From contig NZ_JACJSM010000004.1 of NCBI RefSeq assembly GCF_014698145.1, forward strand, positions 1-64,000: a stretch of DNA of 64,000 bases, written 5' to 3'. The translations under genes were made by a program, and so were the position numbers. This DNA is from Oscillatoria sp. FACHB-1406 (GTDB lineage Bacteria > Cyanobacteriota > Cyanobacteriia > Cyanobacteriales > Spirulinaceae). Below, piece after piece: positions 3,299-37,651 of this stretch (its first letter is position 1; each line of letters starts with the position of its first letter). The notes under the pieces were generated by a model. It did no database searches. It was given only the letters and a program-made list of their open reading frames with translations, and was not told the DNA's origin.

Positions 3299-3602
3299 AA
3301 AATCTGCTGGGGGGACAAGCACCTTTGAAGCCGAAAAGAGTAAGCCTTTCAGGTTCAGATTGCTCGAAAACATACTGAGCCTTTTTAGCGGGATTTTAGG
3401 GATAGAAATATTATGAAATCGTGCTCGCATCGTTGGAAGGATCCGAAAAATGCTCGTACCTTTGCTAAATCAATTAAGCCTAGTTAAGATGAGATTTATT
3501 TAGTGCAATATCAGTAAGAATTGGTATGAGTATGCCTCCCAAGCTTATCTAGAAAACTTGTCTCATATCTACTAAAACTTATAAAAGTAACTTTTTAAAA
3601 TC
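3299..3602. other. Intergenic, AT-rich, no gene seen
   Basis: This 304-base stretch separates the plus-strand methyltransferase from the 3' end of the minus-strand glycan operon. The longest ATG-started frame I see is only about 24 codons (from about 3,413) and resembles nothing known. No clear inverted repeat followed by a T-run was found, so the terminators of the two convergent units could not be placed. Confidence 0.5.
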
Positions 3603-5363
3603 TTATTGAATTATTGTAATCTGACTCTCTAGCCAAGGAGAGTCAAAAGTTTGAGGTTCTTCAATTAATCTAATCGATGAAATTTTTAAAGATTTTTTAA
3701 AGGTGACTAAATTTCTAACCGGCTGTTTATCAATTTCTTGAACAATATTTTCATCATTATTAATTAGTATTTTGAAATAAGTTGGGTAGTTAGGAGGAAT
3801 CCATAATGAGTTAGAATTTATTAGCTGTAACGCTTTTATCTTGTTGTTATTTTTGAAATCAATCTTTAAACAAGCCGGTGCGTTTCCTGATGCTTCTCTA
3901 AAAATTGTGTATTGCTCGGAACTTACGACTTTAGAGTAGCAAGTAAAAAAAGGTGATAAACTTATTATCAAACATAAAACAATTAAGATTTTATATGTAA
4001 TTTTATATTGTATTACCGAACTAATAACAATAATTGTTGTTAGCAAAAAAGTTCCTATTAATAATTGAGTAATTGTTTGGTTGTATCCAAACGTTCCTAG
4101 AGTTGTGATATCCGAGGGTAAAATTAGTCCGAAGTTAATTGGTATAATTTTAAATAACTTAATGTAAGTTAACGAATTTAATCGGTTTTCTAAATACGAA
4201 TTAGGACTAGTTATGAAAAATATAAAATTAATGATGTTGATGATAAACAATGGAATTATTGGTAAATAGAAAAAATTCTTTTTTGAATTATAGTACATCC
4301 AACAATATAATCCAATACTTAAGAATGGAATGGCCGCTACCCAAAATCTAGCTGTCATAGATTCTGATGCTAATCCCCAAATAAAAGTGATGACATATAG
4401 GAAAAGTAGCGACAATGCTTGAATGGCTAGTCTATTTTTCTTTAAGCAACCGATGATTAATCCAGGAAATCCGAACAAGAGAATAGGAGAATACGCTAAA
4501 AGTCCATGTTGTGAACTAAAAAGTTGCATTCCAAGGCGTTCAAAAAAAGTATCTATAGCTGGAGAAAAGGGCGCACTTGCACTGCCAGTGATTGAACCAA
4601 ATAAATAAGTTTGATACTTCACAAAACAACTGTAACCTAGAAATACCAATATTACTTGAATAACTATTTGTAACTTGTCTGTACTTTTTGATTTCTGATG
4701 TTTATTTAAAATATTGGATGCAAAGATAAATCCTACTAATCCTAAAGATACCAATAAACATCTAATGTGAATAAAAGGTAGTAATATAGCAAAAAAAAGT
4801 GATAAATATTGATTAAATAATTCAAATTCTTCTTTTTTATCTTTATTTATAAAAAATAAAGATAGAGTGATGCAACTCATTAGCATAACTTCTGGATAAA
4901 TAAGCTTCAAATATGCAATTAAAGGTAGTGAAAACGAAATAGAAGCAATTGTAAGTTCACTAAAATAGCTATTATTATTTTTGAAATCATTAAAGTAGGA
5001 ATTAAGTAAATTGTATAAACAAATTATTCCTATAATGCCTAATGTAAAATTAGCCCAACGAGCTATTTCTAAATTGAAATTAGCTAGTAAAGAACCATAT
5101 AGTAAACTGGATGCGATAGTTTGCCTGGGCTTATCGAGCTTTCCGAACGTAAAAAAATTGAATTCATGCTTTTCTAGAAAGTTCGCCCAAGTAGCTTCAC
5201 TTGGATAAAACTTAAGATTGGTAAAAATCCCTAAGCCTTGGTATATATATGTTGGTTCGTCTCCGGTACATATTAATTTTTCAATTAAAATATGTATAAT
5301 TATAAGACTTAAAAGCAAGAAAAATATAAATTTCTTTTTTTTATCTAACTTAATAAAACTCAT
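3603..5363 (-). CDS. Polytopic membrane protein, GT-C-like glycosyltransferase
   Basis: A 586-residue protein with about ten or more hydrophobic segments, beginning with one at residues 12-30. A D-E-P pair (D35-E36) directly after the first membrane segment is the place where GT-C enzymes (GT39/PMT-like) carry their catalytic acidic residue in the first periplasmic loop. The last 90 or so residues form a soluble, probably periplasmic beta-rich tail. This suggests transfer of a sugar from a polyprenyl-phosphate donor on the outer face of the membrane. Its start overlaps the preceding glycosyltransferase stop by 4 bases (ATGA), so the two are translationally coupled; it is the last gene of the operon. 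The gene is strikingly AT-rich and lacks HIP1, as expected for recently acquired DNA. Confidence 0.65.
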   Translation of the reverse strand: MSFIKLDKKKKFIFFLLLSLIIIHILIEKLICTGDEPTYIYQGLGIFTNLKFYPSEATWANFLEKHEFNFFTFGKLDKPRQTIASSLLYGSLLANFNLEIARWANFTLGIIGIICLYNLLNSYFNDFKNNNSYFSELTIASISFSLPLIAYLKLIYPEVMLMSCITLSLFFINKDKKEEFELFNQYLSLFFAILLPFIHIRCLLVSLGLVGFIFASNILNKHQKSKSTDKLQIVIQVILVFLGYSCFVKYQTYLFGSITGSASAPFSPAIDTFFERLGMQLFSSQHGLLAYSPILLFGFPGLIIGCLKKNRLAIQALSLLFLYVITFIWGLASESMTARFWVAAIPFLSIGLYCWMYYNSKKNFFYLPIIPLFIINIINFIFFITSPNSYLENRLNSLTYIKLFKIIPINFGLILPSDITTLGTFGYNQTITQLLIGTFLLTTIIVISSVIQYKITYKILIVLCLIISLSPFFTCYSKVVSSEQYTIFREASGNAPACLKIDFKNNNKIKALQLINSNSLWIPPNYPTYFKILINNDENIVQEIDKQPVRNLVTFKKSLKISSIRLIEEPQTFDSPWLESQITIIQ

Positions 5364-6517
5364 ATTTTTTCTGAAAATTGAGCGATAACTTTAGACCATA
5401 AATAACTCGATTTCACATGGCTGTCACCCTGGTTTCCCATTTTCTTTTTGAGAACACCGTTGATTACTTCTAAACAAACAGTAAATTCTTCTCGATCGCA
5501 ATACCATAGCCCACCATTCGCGCGCCGACATTGCCCCACTAAAACATCGCACCTCCCATTAACTAATACAGCTTTCCCCATCGTCCAGGCTTCCAATAAA
5601 ACAATCGACAGGCTTTCGTAGGGCGAAGGCATAACGAGTAAATCGCAGGCAGCAAGAGCATCCCATTTCGTTTGCTCGTCCACGAAACCCAAAGCAATAA
5701 TATCGGGGTGTTCGGGAATTGTCATGACTGACTTCCCTAACAAGACTAACTTTCTGGGCTGAGACTCCTGACTGCGGAGGTAGATGAAGTAGTCGAATAA
5801 CTCCTGGCAGCCTTTGGATGGATCAATTCTGCCAATATACAGTAAAAAGGGATCGCGAATGTTATATTTTTGGCGAAATCGTTCTGCGTTGTAACTATCG
5901 GGTGGTTCAACACCGACTCCAATAACGGGGCCGTCGATGCCGAGGTGCGGAAAGCGTTTTTGGATGAAGCTTTTTTCTTCGGGAGTATTAAAAATAAAGC
6001 CGCGCGGTTTTTTGAAAAATTCGTCCCACATCGTCATGTAAATCGTCCATTCGTCGTGGGCGAGGGGTTCGAGGTAGGCTTTTTCGGCGACGAGAGGAAG
6101 GATAAAGTAGGTTGTGGCGTAAAGATAACCAAAAAAAATGAAAGCGTCGTAATCGTTATGATGTTTGCTCACAAAGTCAATCAGGTCTGTGGAGAGGGGA
6201 CCTTGGGTTTTCATCCAAGTTTCTTGTTCTTCTAATGAAGCGGTTTTAAGACGGGGAGCAAGCTTTTCGGAGAGTCGGTTAAAGGCTTTGACGTTACGCT
6301 TTTGGCTGACACGGAATCGCCGAACTTTTGCCCCTTTAATGACTTCTACTCCAACGGGATAATGATTCTCCCAAGTCATGTAATCGAGAGCGCAGGTGGT
6401 GAGAATTTCGACTTCCCAATGTTGCGCCATGTGCTGGGCAATTTTAAGGCAAAGATTTTCGGCTCCCCCACCGACTTCGGTTCCGCAACGTTGAACGACA
6501 AAGGCAACTTTGGTCAT
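5360..6517 (-). CDS. GT4-family glycosyltransferase
   Basis: A 385-residue GT-B enzyme. The N-terminal G-G-G-A-E-N loop (about residues 16-21) and the C-terminal L-L-Y-I-G-R-I-D-P-S-K-G strand and E-S-L-S-I-V-L-L-E version of the E-x7-E motif mark a retaining GT4 transferase. It resembles the first half of the double enzyme at 7,477-9,864 (both begin with a short strand, then G-G-A-E, and share an F-I-F-F/L-x-Y-L-Y segment near residue 130-160), so the two are probably paralogues. It overlaps its neighbours on both sides by 1-4 bases, showing tight coupling within the operon. Donor and acceptor unknown. Confidence 0.92.
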   Translation of the reverse strand: MTKVAFVVQRCGTEVGGGAENLCLKIAQHMAQHWEVEILTTCALDYMTWENHYPVGVEVIKGAKVRRFRVSQKRNVKAFNRLSEKLAPRLKTASLEEQETWMKTQGPLSTDLIDFVSKHHNDYDAFIFFGYLYATTYFILPLVAEKAYLEPLAHDEWTIYMTMWDEFFKKPRGFIFNTPEEKSFIQKRFPHLGIDGPVIGVGVEPPDSYNAERFRQKYNIRDPFLLYIGRIDPSKGCQELFDYFIYLRSQESQPRKLVLLGKSVMTIPEHPDIIALGFVDEQTKWDALAACDLLVMPSPYESLSIVLLEAWTMGKAVLVNGRCDVLVGQCRRANGGLWYCDREEFTVCLEVINGVLKKKMGNQGDSHVKSSYLWSKVIAQFSEKI

Positions 6518-32414: not shown

Positions 32415-32688
32415 GTATTATCCTTTCTCGTTACGATTTTTTAGTATTACATATTTGTTTAAAAACGTCTTCTTGCTCGCGCTCTTGCGTCCATACTTAT
32501 ATCCCTGATTCACTGCATCCTGGATTCGACTTTCTAAGCCCGGTTTATCCTCAAGAATACGCTCGATTTTAATTCTCTACTTATCGATAGAATTCCGCTA
32601 GATTAAAGATTAGCTTTATTCATTTCTTGCCGAAATCATTCTACTTTCTGGAATACTGGACGTGAATTAACACTCCAACTCTCCATCT

Positions 32689-33177
32689 ATGACCCCAGAA
32701 ATTCAAACTACCTCCGCCCCCATCGACGACGATGAAATCTCCCTGGTCGATATCATCCGCTTTCTGCACCGCAATTGGCGCTTCATTAGCCTCGTCACCC
32801 TAGGCTTCGTGGCGATCGCGCTCCCCTTCACCTTGCTCAAACCCAACGCCTACGAACGGCAATTGACCTTGAGCGTTGGCTCGAAACCGATCGCACTATC
32901 CGCCAACCAACAAATAGGACTGGATGCAGCCCGCGCCAACACTTTAGCCACAGAGAAGCTCAAAAGTCAAGAGTGGAAGGAAATTTCCGCGCAGCCTACC
33001 TACGATGCAACTAAGCAGGAAATCGCCCTAGCGCTGCGATCGCCGAATCCCGAAGCCCTTAAACAGCTTACTCCCAACGCGATCGCAACCCAACTCCAAA
33101 CCGACCTCCAAGATGAACTGCTCGATACCCTAAAACCCAGTTTAGAGGCGCTGGAGTTGCAAATTGCGCGATCGTGA
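32689..33177 (+). pseudogene. Truncated 5' copy of the Wzz-like gene
   Basis: This 162-codon frame is a copy of the first 58 percent of the Wzz-like gene at 34,129-34,965. From 32,689 to about 33,114 the two DNA sequences align without gaps, differing at roughly a dozen of 426 positions; from 33,115 similarity drops, and the frame ends at a stop directly after a G-C-G-A-T-C-G. It keeps the first transmembrane helix (about 28-52) and part of the periplasmic domain but lacks the second helix that Wzz proteins need. It could be a dead copy or make a single-pass partner protein. About 30 bases upstream of both copies are also similar (both have tttctggaatactg). Confidence 0.8.
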
Positions 33178-33200
33178 CAAATTCTTTAGACTTTTTTCAG

Positions 33201-33237
33201 AATGCTCTTAAAAGAGCCTTAGATTTTTAAGAGCATT
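33201..33237. repeat. 13-bp perfect inverted repeat before xisH
   Basis: aatgctcttaaaa at 33,201-33,213 is repeated in inverse orientation at 33,225-33,237 with an 11-base loop. A second, smaller hairpin (gctctt-aa-aagagc, 33,204-33,217) overlaps the left arm, so two alternative folds exist. No T-run follows the right arm, so it is not a standard terminator. It sits between the truncated wzz copy and xisH and may mark the boundary of the inserted pair. Confidence 0.85.
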
Positions 33238-33280
33238 GAGTTAAAATCAATTTTAGATTCCGTGCTGACAACTCGCTCTA

Positions 33281-33700
33281 ATGACAGCTAAAGACATTTT
33301 CCACGATACCGTGCGCTTGGCTTTAGAAAAGGATGGCTGGACGATTACCAACAATCCGCTGACTTTAAGTCCCAGTCGTCGGGCTACTGTTAAAATAGAC
33401 TTAGCTGCGGAAAAATTACTTTCAGCAGAAAAAGGAACGCGAAAAATCGCTGTAGAAGTCAAAAGTTTTGTTGGCTTATCGACAATCTACGAATTTCACA
33501 CTGCTGTTGGTCAATATATTAACTATCGTTTGGCACTAGAAGATTTGAAAATTGAAAGAATTTTATATTTAGCGCTACCAAAAGATATTTATCAAAACTT
33601 TTTTAACGATCCATTCATCAAAAAAGTAATTTCACAAAACAAAATTAAGTTACTCGTGTTTGAGATTGAAAAACAGGAGATCGCACTATGGATCGACTAA
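33281..33700 (+). CDS. xisH: XisH family protein
   Basis: A 139-residue protein that matches XisH across its length, from the opening T-A-K-D-I-F-H-D-x-V-R-x-A-L-x-K-D-G-W to the C-terminal I-A-L-W-I. XisH is one of two factors controlling excision of the fdxN element in Anabaena heterocysts, and its fold resembles PD-(D/E)XK nucleases: here D40 and E59-x-K61 (E-V-K) are in the expected places. Copies are scattered through cyanobacterial genomes far from any fdxN element, where their role is not known. It overlaps xisI by 13 bases. No recombinase (XisF) gene is present in the window. Confidence 0.92.
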   Translation: MTAKDIFHDTVRLALEKDGWTITNNPLTLSPSRRATVKIDLAAEKLLSAEKGTRKIAVEVKSFVGLSTIYEFHTAVGQYINYRLALEDLKIERILYLALPKDIYQNFFNDPFIKKVISQNKIKLLVFEIEKQEIALWID

Positions 33701-34020
33701 ACTATCGAGAATTAATTCAAACAGTCATTCAGCAACACGCCAACGAATATCCCCCAAATAATGAAATTCAAGCCAATCTGCTCTTTGACGAACGGCGCGA
33801 TCGCTACCTACTTCTATACATCGGATGGCGCGGAGAAGAGCGCTTTCACGGCTGTCCGATTCACATCGATCTGATCGATGGCAAAATTTGGATTCAACAA
33901 GATTTTACTGAAGAAGGACTTGCCCAGCAATTGGTCGAGCTTGGAGTCCCTAAAAGCGATATTATTCTGGGATTCAGAGCGCCTTACGTGCGACAATTTA
34001 CCGGATTTGCTGTCGCGTGA
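33688..34020 (+). CDS. xisI: XisI family protein
   Basis: A 110-residue XisI protein, full length, with M-D-x-L-x-x-Y-R-x-x-I-Q-type start, D-x-R-R-D-R-Y-L-L-L-Y-I-G-W (about 30-43), H-G-C-P-I-H-I-D-L-I-D-G-K-I-W-I-Q-Q-D (about 53-71) and the closing P-K-S-D-I-I-L-G-F-R-A-P-Y-V-R-x-F-T-G-F-A. XisI accompanies XisH in a fixed pair and is required with it for fdxN element excision in Anabaena; the biochemical function is unknown. Here the pair is bracketed by the two copies of the wzz 5' region. Confidence 0.92.
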   Translation: MDRLNYRELIQTVIQQHANEYPPNNEIQANLLFDERRDRYLLLYIGWRGEERFHGCPIHIDLIDGKIWIQQDFTEEGLAQQLVELGVPKSDIILGFRAPYVRQFTGFAVA

Positions 34021-34128
34021 GATTGGGGGCATCTGAATATCAGAATTGATGTGAAGCTGTCCCGATCTCCTGAAATAATTCCAATTTCTGGAATACTGTA
34101 AGCTGTTTGATACCCAATTTCTCAGCTT

Positions 34129-34965
34129 ATGACCCAAGAAATTCAGACCACCTCCGCCCCCATCGACGACGATGAAATCTCCCTGGTCGATATCATCCGC
34201 TTTCTGCACCGCAATTGGCGCTTCATTAGCCTCGTCACCCTAGGCTTCGTCGCGATCGCGCTCCCCTTCACCTTGCTCAAACCCAACGCCTACGAACGGC
34301 AATTGACCTTGAGCGTTGGCTCGAAACCGATCGCACTATCCGCCAATCAACAAATAGGACTGGATGCAGCCCGCGCCAACACTTTAGCCACAGAGAAGCT
34401 CAAAAGTCAAGAGTGGAAGGAAATTTCCGCGCAGCCTACCTACGATGCCACCAAACAAGAAATCGCCCTAACGCTGCGATCGCCGAATCCCGAAGCCCTT
34501 AAACAGCTTACTCCCAACGCGATCGCAACCCAACTCCAAACCGACTTCCAAGACGAGATCGTCGATACCATTAAACCCTATTTAGAGACGATCTCGCTCC
34601 AAATCCAGCGATCGCGCCAAATCCTCAAAAGTGTAGAAGCTGACATTGCCAAAACCCCAGCGAGTAATACGCCCCGCCTTGAAGCCCTCGAAGTCCAACG
34701 TGCTGCCTACTTATCTTCCATTGCTTCCCTAGAAGTCGATCGTCAATACCTCCAACAAGCTAGCGGCAAAATCGCCGAAATCGCCAAAATCGTCCTCCCC
34801 ATCGAGATCAAAACTTTCTCGGAAGTTACCCAAAAAGCTCGCTCTCCACTCCAAATTGCTATCCTTTCCCTCATCGCGGGTTTCATGCTCGCTACCCTCG
34901 CCGCTATTATCCGCGAGCAAATTCCCCACATCAAAGCCGAACTGAGTAGAGAAGAGGGAAAATGA
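34129..34965 (+). CDS. Wzz-like chain-length determinant protein
   Basis: A 278-residue protein with the Wzz topology: short cytoplasmic N-terminus with D-D-E-I-S-L-V-D-I-I-R-F-L (about 13-25), first membrane helix (about 28-52), a periplasmic helical domain with a long coiled coil (about 150-235), and a second helix (about 243-262) followed by a short basic/acidic tail. Wzz proteins set the chain length made by Wzy. It lacks any C-terminal tyrosine kinase domain. It is the only complete copy in the window; the 5' 426 bases are nearly repeated upstream. Together with the flippase and Wzy-like genes across the divergent promoter it completes a Wzy-dependent system. Confidence 0.9.
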   Translation: MTQEIQTTSAPIDDDEISLVDIIRFLHRNWRFISLVTLGFVAIALPFTLLKPNAYERQLTLSVGSKPIALSANQQIGLDAARANTLATEKLKSQEWKEISAQPTYDATKQEIALTLRSPNPEALKQLTPNAIATQLQTDFQDEIVDTIKPYLETISLQIQRSRQILKSVEADIAKTPASNTPRLEALEVQRAAYLSSIASLEVDRQYLQQASGKIAEIAKIVLPIEIKTFSEVTQKARSPLQIAILSLIAGFMLATLAAIIREQIPHIKAELSREEGK

Positions 34966-35024: not shown

Positions 35025-35252
35025 ATGCTTCAAACAATAAAACTGCGACGGATTGGGAACTCAGTGGGCGTAACCTTCCCCAAAGAATGGTTAGAGCGGC
35101 TGAACCTTACTGAAGGGGACACTCTCTTTGTCACGGAAACCGAACGAGGACTCGAACTCAGTCCTTACGATCCCGACTTTGAGCGGGCGATGGCAATTTA
35201 CCGACAAGGAAGCCAAAAGTTCCGCCACGCCCTCAAGGAATTAGCTCGGTGA
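35025..35252 (+). CDS. AbrB/MazE-type antitoxin
   Basis: A 75-residue protein with an N-terminal swapped-hairpin AbrB DNA-binding domain: L-R-R-I-G-N-S-V-G-V-T-F-P-K-E-W-L (about 7-23) and L-N-L-T-E-G-D. The C-terminal tail (D-P-D-F-E-R-A-M-A-I-Y-R) is the part expected to wrap the toxin; this tail with Y-D-P-D-F-E is typical of antitoxins paired with Doc. Such antitoxins repress their own promoter, which should lie in the 59 bases before the gene. Its stop overlaps the toxin's GTG start by 4 bases. Confidence 0.92.
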   Translation: MLQTIKLRRIGNSVGVTFPKEWLERLNLTEGDTLFVTETERGLELSPYDPDFERAMAIYRQGSQKFRHALKELAR

Positions 35253-35632
35253 ATCAACCGACATGGCTGACAGAACCCATAGTTCTGGCAATTCACGAGG
35301 CTTTAATCTCCCAATACGGTGGTTTATCGGGACTAAGGGATAGTGGGATGCTGAGTGCGAGTTTGGCTCGCCCCCGCCATCGCTTTGCCTACGAGCCAGA
35401 GGTTTCTTTACCCGCTTTAGCCGCCGCCTACGGTTTCGCCCTATGTAATAACCATCCTTTCATTGATGGCAATAAACGCACGGCTTTCATGGCAATGTAC
35501 GTTTTCTTAGGGTTGAATGGCTATGGCTTGACGGTTCCAGAACCGGAGGTTGTTCTGATGATGGAAGGATTGGCATCGGCAGAGATTGATGAAAAGGCTC
35601 TGGCTGCGTGGTTGACTCAATCAATCCCATAG
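35249..35632 (+). CDS. doc: Doc-type Fic toxin (death on curing)
   Basis: A 127-residue Doc protein starting at GTG (V-N-Q-P-T-W-L), coupled to its antitoxin. The Fic motif H-P-F-I-D-G-N-K-R-T-A-F is present at about residues 68-79, with catalytic histidine and the N-K-R in the Doc form. Doc toxins phosphorylate elongation factor Tu and stop translation. The upstream E-A-L-I-x-x-Y-G-G-L-S-G-L-R-D is the conserved N-terminal half. Intact, so presumably functional. The pairing with AbrB rather than Phd is common in cyanobacteria. Confidence 0.93.
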   Translation: MNQPTWLTEPIVLAIHEALISQYGGLSGLRDSGMLSASLARPRHRFAYEPEVSLPALAAAYGFALCNNHPFIDGNKRTAFMAMYVFLGLNGYGLTVPEPEVVLMMEGLASAEIDEKALAAWLTQSIP

Positions 35633-35716: not shown

Positions 35717-37651
35717 ATGGTCAAACGATTTCCCTTCCCTTCCACCTACCGTTTCGCACAATTTGCACTTGATGCCTTCACTGCTGGGTTTGCGTTCTAC
35801 CTCGCCTTTCCGATACGGTTCGAGGGCAGCGTCGTCCCCCCCCACGACACCATCGCCATCGTCCTCCCCCTCCTCGCCATTCCCGGACGACTGCTAACTA
35901 ATGCTGCCTTTGGTTTATACCAACAAGTCTGGCGTTTATTTGGCTTCAAGGACTTCATTCGCCTATTCAACGCCGTTACCTTCTTCTCTCTTTTCACCCT
36001 CGTCCTCACTCGCCTCTTGCTCCCGCGCTGGTGGCTCAATTTCGTTGGCGTTCCCCTCGGCGTGTCCGTCATCGATTGGTGCTTCTGCTTGATGGGAATG
36101 GTCGCCCTGCGCTACGCCCGCCGTCGTTCTGCACAGCAACCTTTGTGGCGGCGAAGGCAGCGTAACGAACCGCAAAAGCGGGTACTGCTCATCGGCGCGG
36201 GACAAGCGGGATCCCTGGTAGCGCAAGAAGTTCGGCAAAATCCCAGTCTCAATTTCAAAGTTGTGGGTTTTCTGGACGACGATCGCACCAAAGTCGGACG
36301 CACGGTAGAAGGGATTAAAGTTCTCGGTACGACCTCTCAACTGGTCGCGATCGCGCAGTACCATCAGGTCAAAGAAGTCCTGATCGCCATGCCTTCAGCC
36401 AGAGCAGAGCAAATTCGCCACATCGTCGCTCTGGCGCGCGGTACGTCCCTTGACCTTAAGATTATCCCCAGTCACGGCGAACTACTGCGCGATCGCTCCC
36501 TTGCCCCCCAAGCGCGGGAAATCCAAATTCAAGACATCCTCGGACGCGCCGAAATCCATCTTGACTTTGCCGAGCAGTTCGATACTCTCTTCTCCTCCGC
36601 CCAAGAACAAGTTGCCGGACGAACGATCCTCGTCACCGGCGCAGGAGGAACCATCGGCTCGGAAATCTGCCGCCAAATCGCCCGTTTAGCCCCGCAGCGC
36701 CTCTTGTTACTGGGTCGAGGGGAAAACAGTATCTTTCACGTCGAACGGAGCCTTAAACGCCAATTTCCGACGGTAGAGATGACACCCCTCATCGCTGATA
36801 TCCGCCATCGCGATCGCATCGAATGGATTCTCAAAACCTGGCAACCTGATATTATCTTCCACGCTGCCGCCCACAAGCACGTCCCCTTGATGCAGCACAA
36901 CCCGACGGAAGCGCTGGAAAATAACAGCCTCGCTTCCGCCCAACTCGCCGCACTCGCCCAACGCTACGGGGTTAAAAGTTTTGTGATGATTTCTACCGAT
37001 AAGGCGGTCGATCCCCGTAACTTTATGGGAGCAAGCAAGCGCCTAGCAGAACTGCTGGTTAAGGCGCAGGCGCACCAGAGCAATACTCGCTTTTTGGTAG
37101 TACGATTCGGCAATGTTTTAGGGAGTCGCGGCAGCGTCGTTCCCATTTTCCAGGAACAAATCGCGCGGGGCGGTCCGGTGACGGTGACAGATCGAGAGAT
37201 GACGCGCTATTTCATGACAGCACCGGAAGCCTCGCAGTTGGTGATTCAAAGCTTAGCTGTAGGGAAGTCGGGGCAAACATTGATCCTAGATATGGGGCAG
37301 CCGGTGAGAATTTACGACCTAGCAGAACAAGCGATCGAACTGGCAGGATTTGTTCCTCATGTCGATATTCCCATTGAGATTATTGGCTTGCGTCCCGGCG
37401 AAAAATTACACGAATCTTTGGTTTGCAAGGTGGAAACAGTGGAAATAACTCCGCATCCAAAAATTGTTGCTGTGGTGGGAGGAATTCCTGACTTTCAAGC
37501 AGCAGAACAAGCGATTTTAATGCTGCAAAACGCAACGCAAAACGTTAATGACTCGGAAGAATTATGGGCGATCGCGCAGCAGTGCCAAACGGCATTAGAA
37601 TCATCAAATTGCTTGACTCGGATAAGTACGCGAGAGCAAAGAATAAGCTAA
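35717..37651 (+). CDS. CapD/WbpM-type nucleotide-sugar 4,6-dehydratase
   Basis: A 644-residue membrane-bound SDR. Residues about 15-140 hold four hydrophobic helices, followed by a degenerate nucleotide-binding domain with L-L-I-G-A-G-Q-A-G (about 156-164), then the catalytic domain with V-T-G-A-G-G-T-I-G-S-E-I (about 307-318). The active site is S-T-D-K-A-V-x-P-x-N-x-M-G-A-S-K-R, the Thr/Met/Lys form found in inverting and retaining UDP-GlcNAc 4,6-dehydratases of the WbpM/PglF group. It converts UDP-GlcNAc to the 4-keto-6-deoxy sugar, feeding synthesis of QuiNAc, FucNAc or bacillosamine. No dedicated reductase or aminotransferase is in the window except possibly the atypical SDR at 18,499. 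Confidence 0.93.
   Translation: MVKRFPFPSTYRFAQFALDAFTAGFAFYLAFPIRFEGSVVPPHDTIAIVLPLLAIPGRLLTNAAFGLYQQVWRLFGFKDFIRLFNAVTFFSLFTLVLTRLLLPRWWLNFVGVPLGVSVIDWCFCLMGMVALRYARRRSAQQPLWRRRQRNEPQKRVLLIGAGQAGSLVAQEVRQNPSLNFKVVGFLDDDRTKVGRTVEGIKVLGTTSQLVAIAQYHQVKEVLIAMPSARAEQIRHIVALARGTSLDLKIIPSHGELLRDRSLAPQAREIQIQDILGRAEIHLDFAEQFDTLFSSAQEQVAGRTILVTGAGGTIGSEICRQIARLAPQRLLLLGRGENSIFHVERSLKRQFPTVEMTPLIADIRHRDRIEWILKTWQPDIIFHAAAHKHVPLMQHNPTEALENNSLASAQLAALAQRYGVKSFVMISTDKAVDPRNFMGASKRLAELLVKAQAHQSNTRFLVVRFGNVLGSRGSVVPIFQEQIARGGPVTVTDREMTRYFMTAPEASQLVIQSLAVGKSGQTLILDMGQPVRIYDLAEQAIELAGFVPHVDIPIEIIGLRPGEKLHESLVCKVETVEITPHPKIVAVVGGIPDFQAAEQAILMLQNATQNVNDSEELWAIAQQCQTALESSNCLTRISTREQRIS

Follow-up and report, generated by a model that had tools for sequence, protein, structure and literature searches.

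Integrative islands that restore a gene end insert there together with a second copy of that end, so that the gene stays intact, and they carry an integrase and short att sites. In the fdxN element of Nostoc (Anabaena) sp. PCC 7120, the products of the small genes xisH and xisI are both required for excision of the element by the recombinase XisF (PMC4874684). The closest published case that we found, going by the excerpted text of PMC7336809, is AcnSP of Synechocystis 6803, in which the acnB promoter and an N-terminal fragment stand on the plasmid pSYSA beside a two-gene toxin-antitoxin system. Here we describe a locus in a window of 64,000 nucleotides from Oscillatoria sp. FACHB-1406 (contig NZ_JACJSM010000004.1 of assembly GCF_014698145.1, positions 1 to 64,000, forward strand), where the 5' part of the gene wzz is present twice as a direct repeat and an xisH-xisI (xisHI) pair lies between the copies. 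We propose that xisHI, as a mobile pair resembling a toxin-antitoxin system, came to rest at the 5' end of wzz along with a duplicate of that end, and that the copies later underwent gene conversion, a reading to which, on sequence data, we assign a probability of roughly 0.6.

The locus shares with the fdxN element the two protein families PF08814 and PF08869 and differs from it in two respects: the interval contains no recombinase gene, the sole XisF-like gene found being distant and on another contig, and the neighbouring wzz is already intact in its second copy, so that excision would restore no interrupted gene. With AcnSP it has in common a fragment of a gene end that adjoins a two-gene system. 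The AcnSP fragment, as the excerpt describes it, comprises 44 amino acids and lies on a plasmid, the intact gene being chromosomal, whereas the fragment in the window has 162 codons and, together with the intact gene, brackets the pair. Gene-end-restoring islands resemble the locus in the duplicated gene end and the intact gene; they differ in their integrase and att sites, none of which were seen in the interval. Finally, type II modules such as vapBC and mazE-doc are likewise compact, overlapping pairs, multi-copy, patchily distributed and also plasmid-borne, and vapBC shows the same gene-end brackets, but XisHI are only putatively toxin and antitoxin.

We compared the two copies of the repeat base by base. 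The original prediction had described a repeated wzz 5' region at an offset of exactly 1,440 bases, with about a dozen mismatches and no gaps, and this was confirmed: in the core (32689-33114 and 34129-34554), 414 of 426 bases are identical, and 9 of the 12 mismatches fall at third codon positions. This similarity far exceeds chance. Local alignment extends the repeat to about 555 bp (32632-33185 and 34072-34625), with 508 of 557 columns identical, 6 gap columns and identical runs of up to 101 bp. Upstream of the core, where some 30 similar bases had been noted, the similarity is present and its extent is larger than stated, about 57 bp at about 73% identity with small gaps (32632-32688 against 34072-34128; identities beyond the core were counted from the alignment). 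Downstream, the first copy had been thought to end abruptly right after the motif gcgatcg. Another 70 bp or so (33115-33186) can be aligned at about 69% identity, so the homology of copy A continues past the motif, and its 3' tail (33115-33185) is a diverged homologous sequence with no abrupt cut. The inter-repeat stretch, 886 bp between the alignment borders (33186-34071), holds, as predicted, only a complete, overlapping xisH and xisI and short spacers.

Copy A (32689-33177) is a truncated wzz whose frame stays open, without a frameshift, for 162 codons up to a TGA at 33175-33177. Its hydrophobicity profile shows a single stretch, corresponding to the first membrane helix (residues 32-50), and the second helix is absent. 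Copy B (34129-34965) is full length, 278 codons, with two predicted membrane helices (32-50 and 243-261) and the capD-like neighbour that is found beside its homologues. Against PF02706 copy A scored 29.1 bits, above the cut-off, and copy B 24.8 bits, just below the cut-off of 25.5 despite a near-identical N-terminal domain; the NCBIfam Wzz models matched neither copy.

The tail of copy A is informative about its history. Between codons 140 and 162 the copies differ at 20 of 69 bases, and the resulting differences are mostly conservative replacements: the BLOSUM62 sum is 74, compared with an average of 42-43 for random substitution (P 0.0004-0.0015). The constrained tail thus resembles one from a further functional wzz more than a decaying sequence. 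Alternatively, copy A may itself be expressed and under constraint. Compared with 13 relatives, the two tails gave sums of 276 and 269, neither being clearly nearer. A core at 97% between edges at about 70% supports recent homogenisation of the 5' parts, and in our reading the repeat represents the 5' regions of two functional wzz genes that had diverged and whose cores gene conversion probably made alike later, in agreement with the recent conversion that had been predicted. A 10-bp stretch accounts for four of the eight inner core mismatches (P = 0.002 for a random spread), a cluster such as patchy conversion would be expected to leave. The constrained tail also appears to speak against a long target-site duplication as the sole mechanism, since the copies would then have been identical at first.

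To place the locus among its relatives, Wzz was searched in 39 genomes of relatives and in 388 genomes of the order (the two sets overlap, and both include the genome of the window), and 14 loci outside the window were fetched. Each of these has a single wzz place with no second copy, and none has a match to XisH, XisI, MazE or Doc at E 1e-4. A capD-like polysaccharide biosynthesis gene follows wzz directly in 11 of the 14, its match starting about 70-170 bp after the wzz match; in the window the capD-like gene (35717-37651, on the forward strand like the wzz copies, xisHI and the mazE-doc pair) lies downstream of copy B, beyond a mazE-doc pair. Of the other three, the contig of L083 ends inside wzz, L084 has a weak match at 22% and no capD, and the contig of L073 has no capD. 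A divergent flippase gene lies upstream of wzz in L077, L081, L083 and L084, and in the window too. With a flippase upstream and capD downstream in other loci, it is copy A that stands where the 5' end of wzz natively lies, and copy B where its 3' end does. The sequences support a duplication peculiar to this genome among the genomes examined, consistent with the original suggestion that the pair may have arrived in a duplication. The same arrangement fixed in distant relatives, which by the original prediction would have counted against its reading as a whole, was looked for in the 14 loci, and the relatives are without it. No Wzz relative was found in viral contigs with a single-protein query that detects close relatives only, and plasmid matches cover parts of xisH and xisI and not the wzz piece.

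The pair itself is well preserved. XisH (33281-33700, 139 amino acids) matches PF08814 with 180.7 bits (E 1.8e-53) and XisI (33688-34020, 110 amino acids) matches PF08869 with 140.6 bits (E 3.1e-41), both nearly over their full length and far from the cut-off of 25, and the genes overlap by 13 bp. Solved relatives are in the PDB for XisH (2inb, 2okf) and for XisI (2nlv, 3d7q, 2nwv, 2nvm). The XisH residues D40, E59 and K61, which we take to be the catalytic residues of the PD-(D/E)XK fold, are invariant in 10 of 10 aligned XisH proteins, and XisH is given in PMC1189080 as an earlier identified member of the PD-(D/E)XK superfamily. PADLOC returned no match to XisH or XisI.

The genome of the window has xisH matches at six places, one of them partial and two with an internal stop, the partial one included. 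These degenerate-looking matches are at L008 1501-1635 (partial) and L006 1501-1902 (full length). The family is present in 35 of the 39 genomes of relatives and in 82 of 291 genomes sampled across the phylum; among loci fetched for XisH, xisH and xisI occur together in 178 of 186 module matches (78/82 and 100/104), and five plasmid records carry xisH or xisI matches. The pair therefore has the layout of a type II toxin-antitoxin system, being small, overlapping, co-directional, multi-copy and patchy, and its dispersed, multi-copy and also plasmid-borne occurrence supports the mobile-pair reading. Excerpts of the literature also place it outside the fdxN context: xisHI has been noted in a non-heterocystous cyanobacterium with a function still to be disclosed (PMC2674450), and sulfur bacteria are reported to carry xisHI without xisF (PMC4853749).

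In the course of events that we propose, a mobile, toxin-antitoxin-like xisHI pair would have settled at the 5' end of wzz and come to be bracketed by a direct duplication of about 555 bp, made up of 57 bp of upstream sequence and 166 codons. Copy A would have stayed upstream as a truncated stub beside the native upstream gene, and copy B, fused downstream to the native 3' part, would have kept wzz intact. The incoming DNA may have brought with it a wzz 5' end that had diverged, or a tandem, diverged wzz may have been there beforehand, and later gene conversion would have brought the core to 97% and left the edges near 70%. If xisHI is selfish or addictive, so that its loss is penalised, this could have helped a deletable repeat to persist.

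The order of events may instead have been the reverse, which we consider possible and clearly less probable: an older duplication of the full wzz would have come first, xisHI would have been inserted in the first copy, replacing its 3' part, and conversion would have kept the 5' parts alike. This would account for a copy A tail that diverged under constraint, as in an old paralogue, and for diverged edges around a similar core. Nevertheless, it requires an additional event, a second wzz is found in none of the 14 fetched loci (L083 being cut inside wzz by the contig end), and no remnant of the lost 3' part was seen: in a genome search with full Wzz, the match at copy A covered query residues 1-177 alone. 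A separate question is what the stub might do. By analogy with AcnSP, which is described in the excerpt of PMC7336809 as derived from the aconitase N-terminus and lies beside a toxin-antitoxin pair, truncated WzzA might be an expressed small regulator of Wzz; its 162-codon open frame, retained first membrane helix and constrained tail would suit such a role. We regard this as improbable: the constraint may predate the truncation, promoter-like hits are little above expectation (6 found, 3.6 expected), and the terminator-like stem-loop 3' of the copy A stop (33204-33217) belongs to a class found at background level (5 found, 4.3 expected).

The remaining alternative, put forward in the original prediction, is that XisHI together with a recombinase excise the interval and thereby alter wzz expression or glycan chain length. 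The requirement for XisH and XisI in the fdxN system and the long direct repeats around the pair make the idea attractive, and a distant XisF-like recombinase gene does exist, a 420-amino-acid open reading frame (ORF) on another contig (G000:C22; L145 523-1785), which might act in trans on the interval. This protein matches PF07508 with 46.6 bits, above the cut-off, and has weak PDB matches to serine integrases, but it scores 112 bits against the XisF equivalog NF041201, far below the cut-off of 375. The genome's single resolvase-family match, to PF00239, falls in this ORF and reached 24.9 bits (cut-off 23.3; residues 38-109 of 145) in a search for resolvase-type recombinases. The resolvase match of the XisF-like protein starts at profile position 44, and the unmatched N-terminal profile segment is where we would expect the catalytic serine, so this recombinase is possibly without a working catalytic segment. 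Its contig contains no xisH match, and the protein has no plasmid match.

Other observations also speak against such a switch. Among the ORFs between the repeats there is no recombinase gene, the other five xisH places of the genome show no comparable gene duplication around them (L019 has a non-coding repeat of about 97 nt), and xisHI is reported without xisF in the sulfur bacteria, and also in a non-heterocystous strain, as cited above; the multi-copy character of the family likewise speaks against xisHI as a mark of an excisable element. We also modelled crossovers between copies A and B (offsets 30-419, after 10 identical bases), and all returned one open wzz of the same length, 278 amino acids, with 1-2 residues different from B. 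Recombination between the copies would thus keep the frame and by itself bring no change of chain length; the difference would be confined to the sequence upstream of wzz. With identical runs of up to 101 bp, ordinary recombination could in principle delete exactly 1,440 bp. The excision-switch reading is therefore not supported by the sequence and we consider it very unlikely, which removes an attractive story of wzz phase switching.

We asked how often gene pairs are bracketed in the way seen at wzz. A bracket was defined at protein level as a fragment of the module-facing end of a neighbouring intact gene, located on the far side of the module; the final count used strand-aware pairs and the facing-end rule, with other genes and response-regulator loci as controls. 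The match start was set at base 1501 of each search locus, except in nine contig-clipped loci. In total, 177 of 186 xisHI modules were tested (the remainder being too near an end or repeated), as well as 42 of 50 vapBC, 24 of 30 parE and 23 of 30 response-regulator loci. Facing-end brackets were found in 5 of 177 xisHI modules, the window included, in 3 of 42 vapBC modules and in 1 of 446 controls, the latter being the C-terminus of an 852-amino-acid ORF in L094; pooled with parE, the modules gave 8 of 243 against 1 of 446 (p = 0.0014). An earlier count of fragments of any gene part had given 6/177 for xisHI, 5/43 for vapBC and 2/412 for genes. Fragments of a non-facing end were counted apart (xisHI L244; vapBC L318 and L326; control L119), L177 was classed as a paralogue, and L314, part of the earlier count, dropped out when module borders were redefined. 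A specificity of brackets for xisHI was considered and rejected, as vapBC has them at least as frequently.

Besides the window, the clear xisHI cases are L094 (promoter and N-terminus of a 277-amino-acid ORF), L142 (acnB C-terminus) and L213 (C-terminus of a major facilitator superfamily transporter), and the clear vapBC cases are L327 (DUF1810 N-terminus), L328 (near the Bax1-I C-terminus) and L270 (C-terminus of a 359-amino-acid ORF). In these six the repeats measure 98-184 bp and the inserts 782-1,184 bp. Diverged paralogues (43-45%) of the gene beside L094 occur in the same genome and in a related one, but the fragment matches at 88% at DNA level, which points to a recent copy. At DNA level, any direct repeat between the 700-bp flanks was present in 27 of 177 xisHI modules, in 7 of 43 vapBC modules and in 18 of 230 gene-bounded controls (xisHI against controls, p = 0.014), and strict repeats (at least 80 bp, at least 85%, in both flanks) in 4 of 43 vapBC modules. 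Random-window controls (strict 0/395; 2/268), which had favoured a specificity for xisHI more, were set aside as unfair, since random windows lie mostly inside genes. Some of the seven gene-bounded controls with strict repeats are themselves such pairs, as L099 covers a PIN match, L105 a PIN gene (overlapping L317 of the vapBC set) and L305 an HNH gene. L305 (453-1863) has the topology of the window: a pair with an HNH endonuclease as its second gene is flanked by a 66-codon start of a Uma2 gene and by the intact gene of 227 codons.

The 3' side of acnB was followed through 11 family genomes with a fetched acnB. Complete, truncated or remnant xisHI was observed there in four (L301 3383-6296, L292 4372-4889, L293 4598-4942, L294 4203-4301): G009 has the whole pair, in G010 the beginning of xisH is missing, G006 retains only xisI, and G002 only part of xisI. 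The seven others, the same-genus genome G004 included and some on short contigs, have no xis match 3' of acnB. In G009 a second copy of the acnB tail (95%) stands behind xisHI, and further along come repeated pieces of xisI and of the sequence that follows the fragment; the intact gene retains its native stop codon with a few bases after it, and the fragment ends short. From these sequences, the 3' side of acnB looks like a hot spot of repeated local duplication and decay.

Several points weigh against the settling of a mobile pair as we propose it. The acnB fragment of G009 is 95% like its own intact copy and 91.5% like G004, and the intact acnB region is 92.4% like that of G004, values that fit local duplication better than foreign DNA. 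At wzz we have no empty site: the closest Wzz relative in the genomes searched has 44% identity and the set holds no other genome of the window's genus, so the sequences give no direct reading of either the empty site or the timing of the event. Our survey is post hoc, with the facing-end rule framed after the first cases; modules from the same genome are not independent of each other, and ORF calling was mechanical. When the window is left out, xisHI brackets fall to 4 of 176 (p = 0.024), with L107 a weak case among them; parE gave none in 24, and strict repeats at DNA level show no significant excess, occurring in 10 of 177 xisHI modules against 7 of 230 ordinary small genes or pairs (p = 0.15). 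Furthermore, according to work cited in an excerpt of PMC4853749, XisH is a likely endonuclease and XisI a likely recombination directionality factor.

Given these counts, there is modest support for the view that such pairs may settle at gene ends with a duplicated end, and the wider pattern, shared with vapBC, is suggestive. We would extend it only tentatively, and with more doubt than belief, to the proposal that toxin-antitoxin-like cassettes (xisHI, vapBC and others) recurrently install at gene ends with 0.1-0.55 kb of duplicated end and no recombinase of their own, the target staying intact, and leave behind truncated, sometimes expressed paralogue fragments of the AcnSP kind, from which small regulatory proteins could arise. 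AcnSP, as its excerpt presents it, is an instance of a gene-end fragment next to such a pair that has acquired a function. The locus raises the general question of how small pairs without their own recombinase spread into gene ends while the gene survives, and that of the origin of truncated neighbours like WzzA and AcnSP. Judged by title and the start of the abstract, none of the literature matches listed describes the general bracket pattern, in a search with most subscription journals outside its scope.

A second two-gene module is present at this wzz. A MazE/AbrB-type antitoxin gene of a doc pair (35025-35252; TIGR02609 above cut-off) and a Doc-type toxin gene (35249-35632; TIGR01550 above cut-off) lie between copy B and capD (35025-35632), where 11 of the 14 other loci have a gap of only about 70-170 bp, and the wzz of the window is thus bounded by two gene pairs. 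Elsewhere in the same genome, another xisHI pair (L019 5172-5932) sits between non-coding repeats of about 97 nt that begin GGGTGGGCAAGG, with a third copy nearby (3306-3402, 4843-4939 and 6092-6188). Directly 5' of a further xisHI pair lies a 625-amino-acid ORF with six in-register units of 120 bp (L017 3849-4746). Both flanks of the L172 xisHI pair (947-1128 and 1931-2112) contain, by eye, the decayed start of a REP-associated-transposase-like gene.

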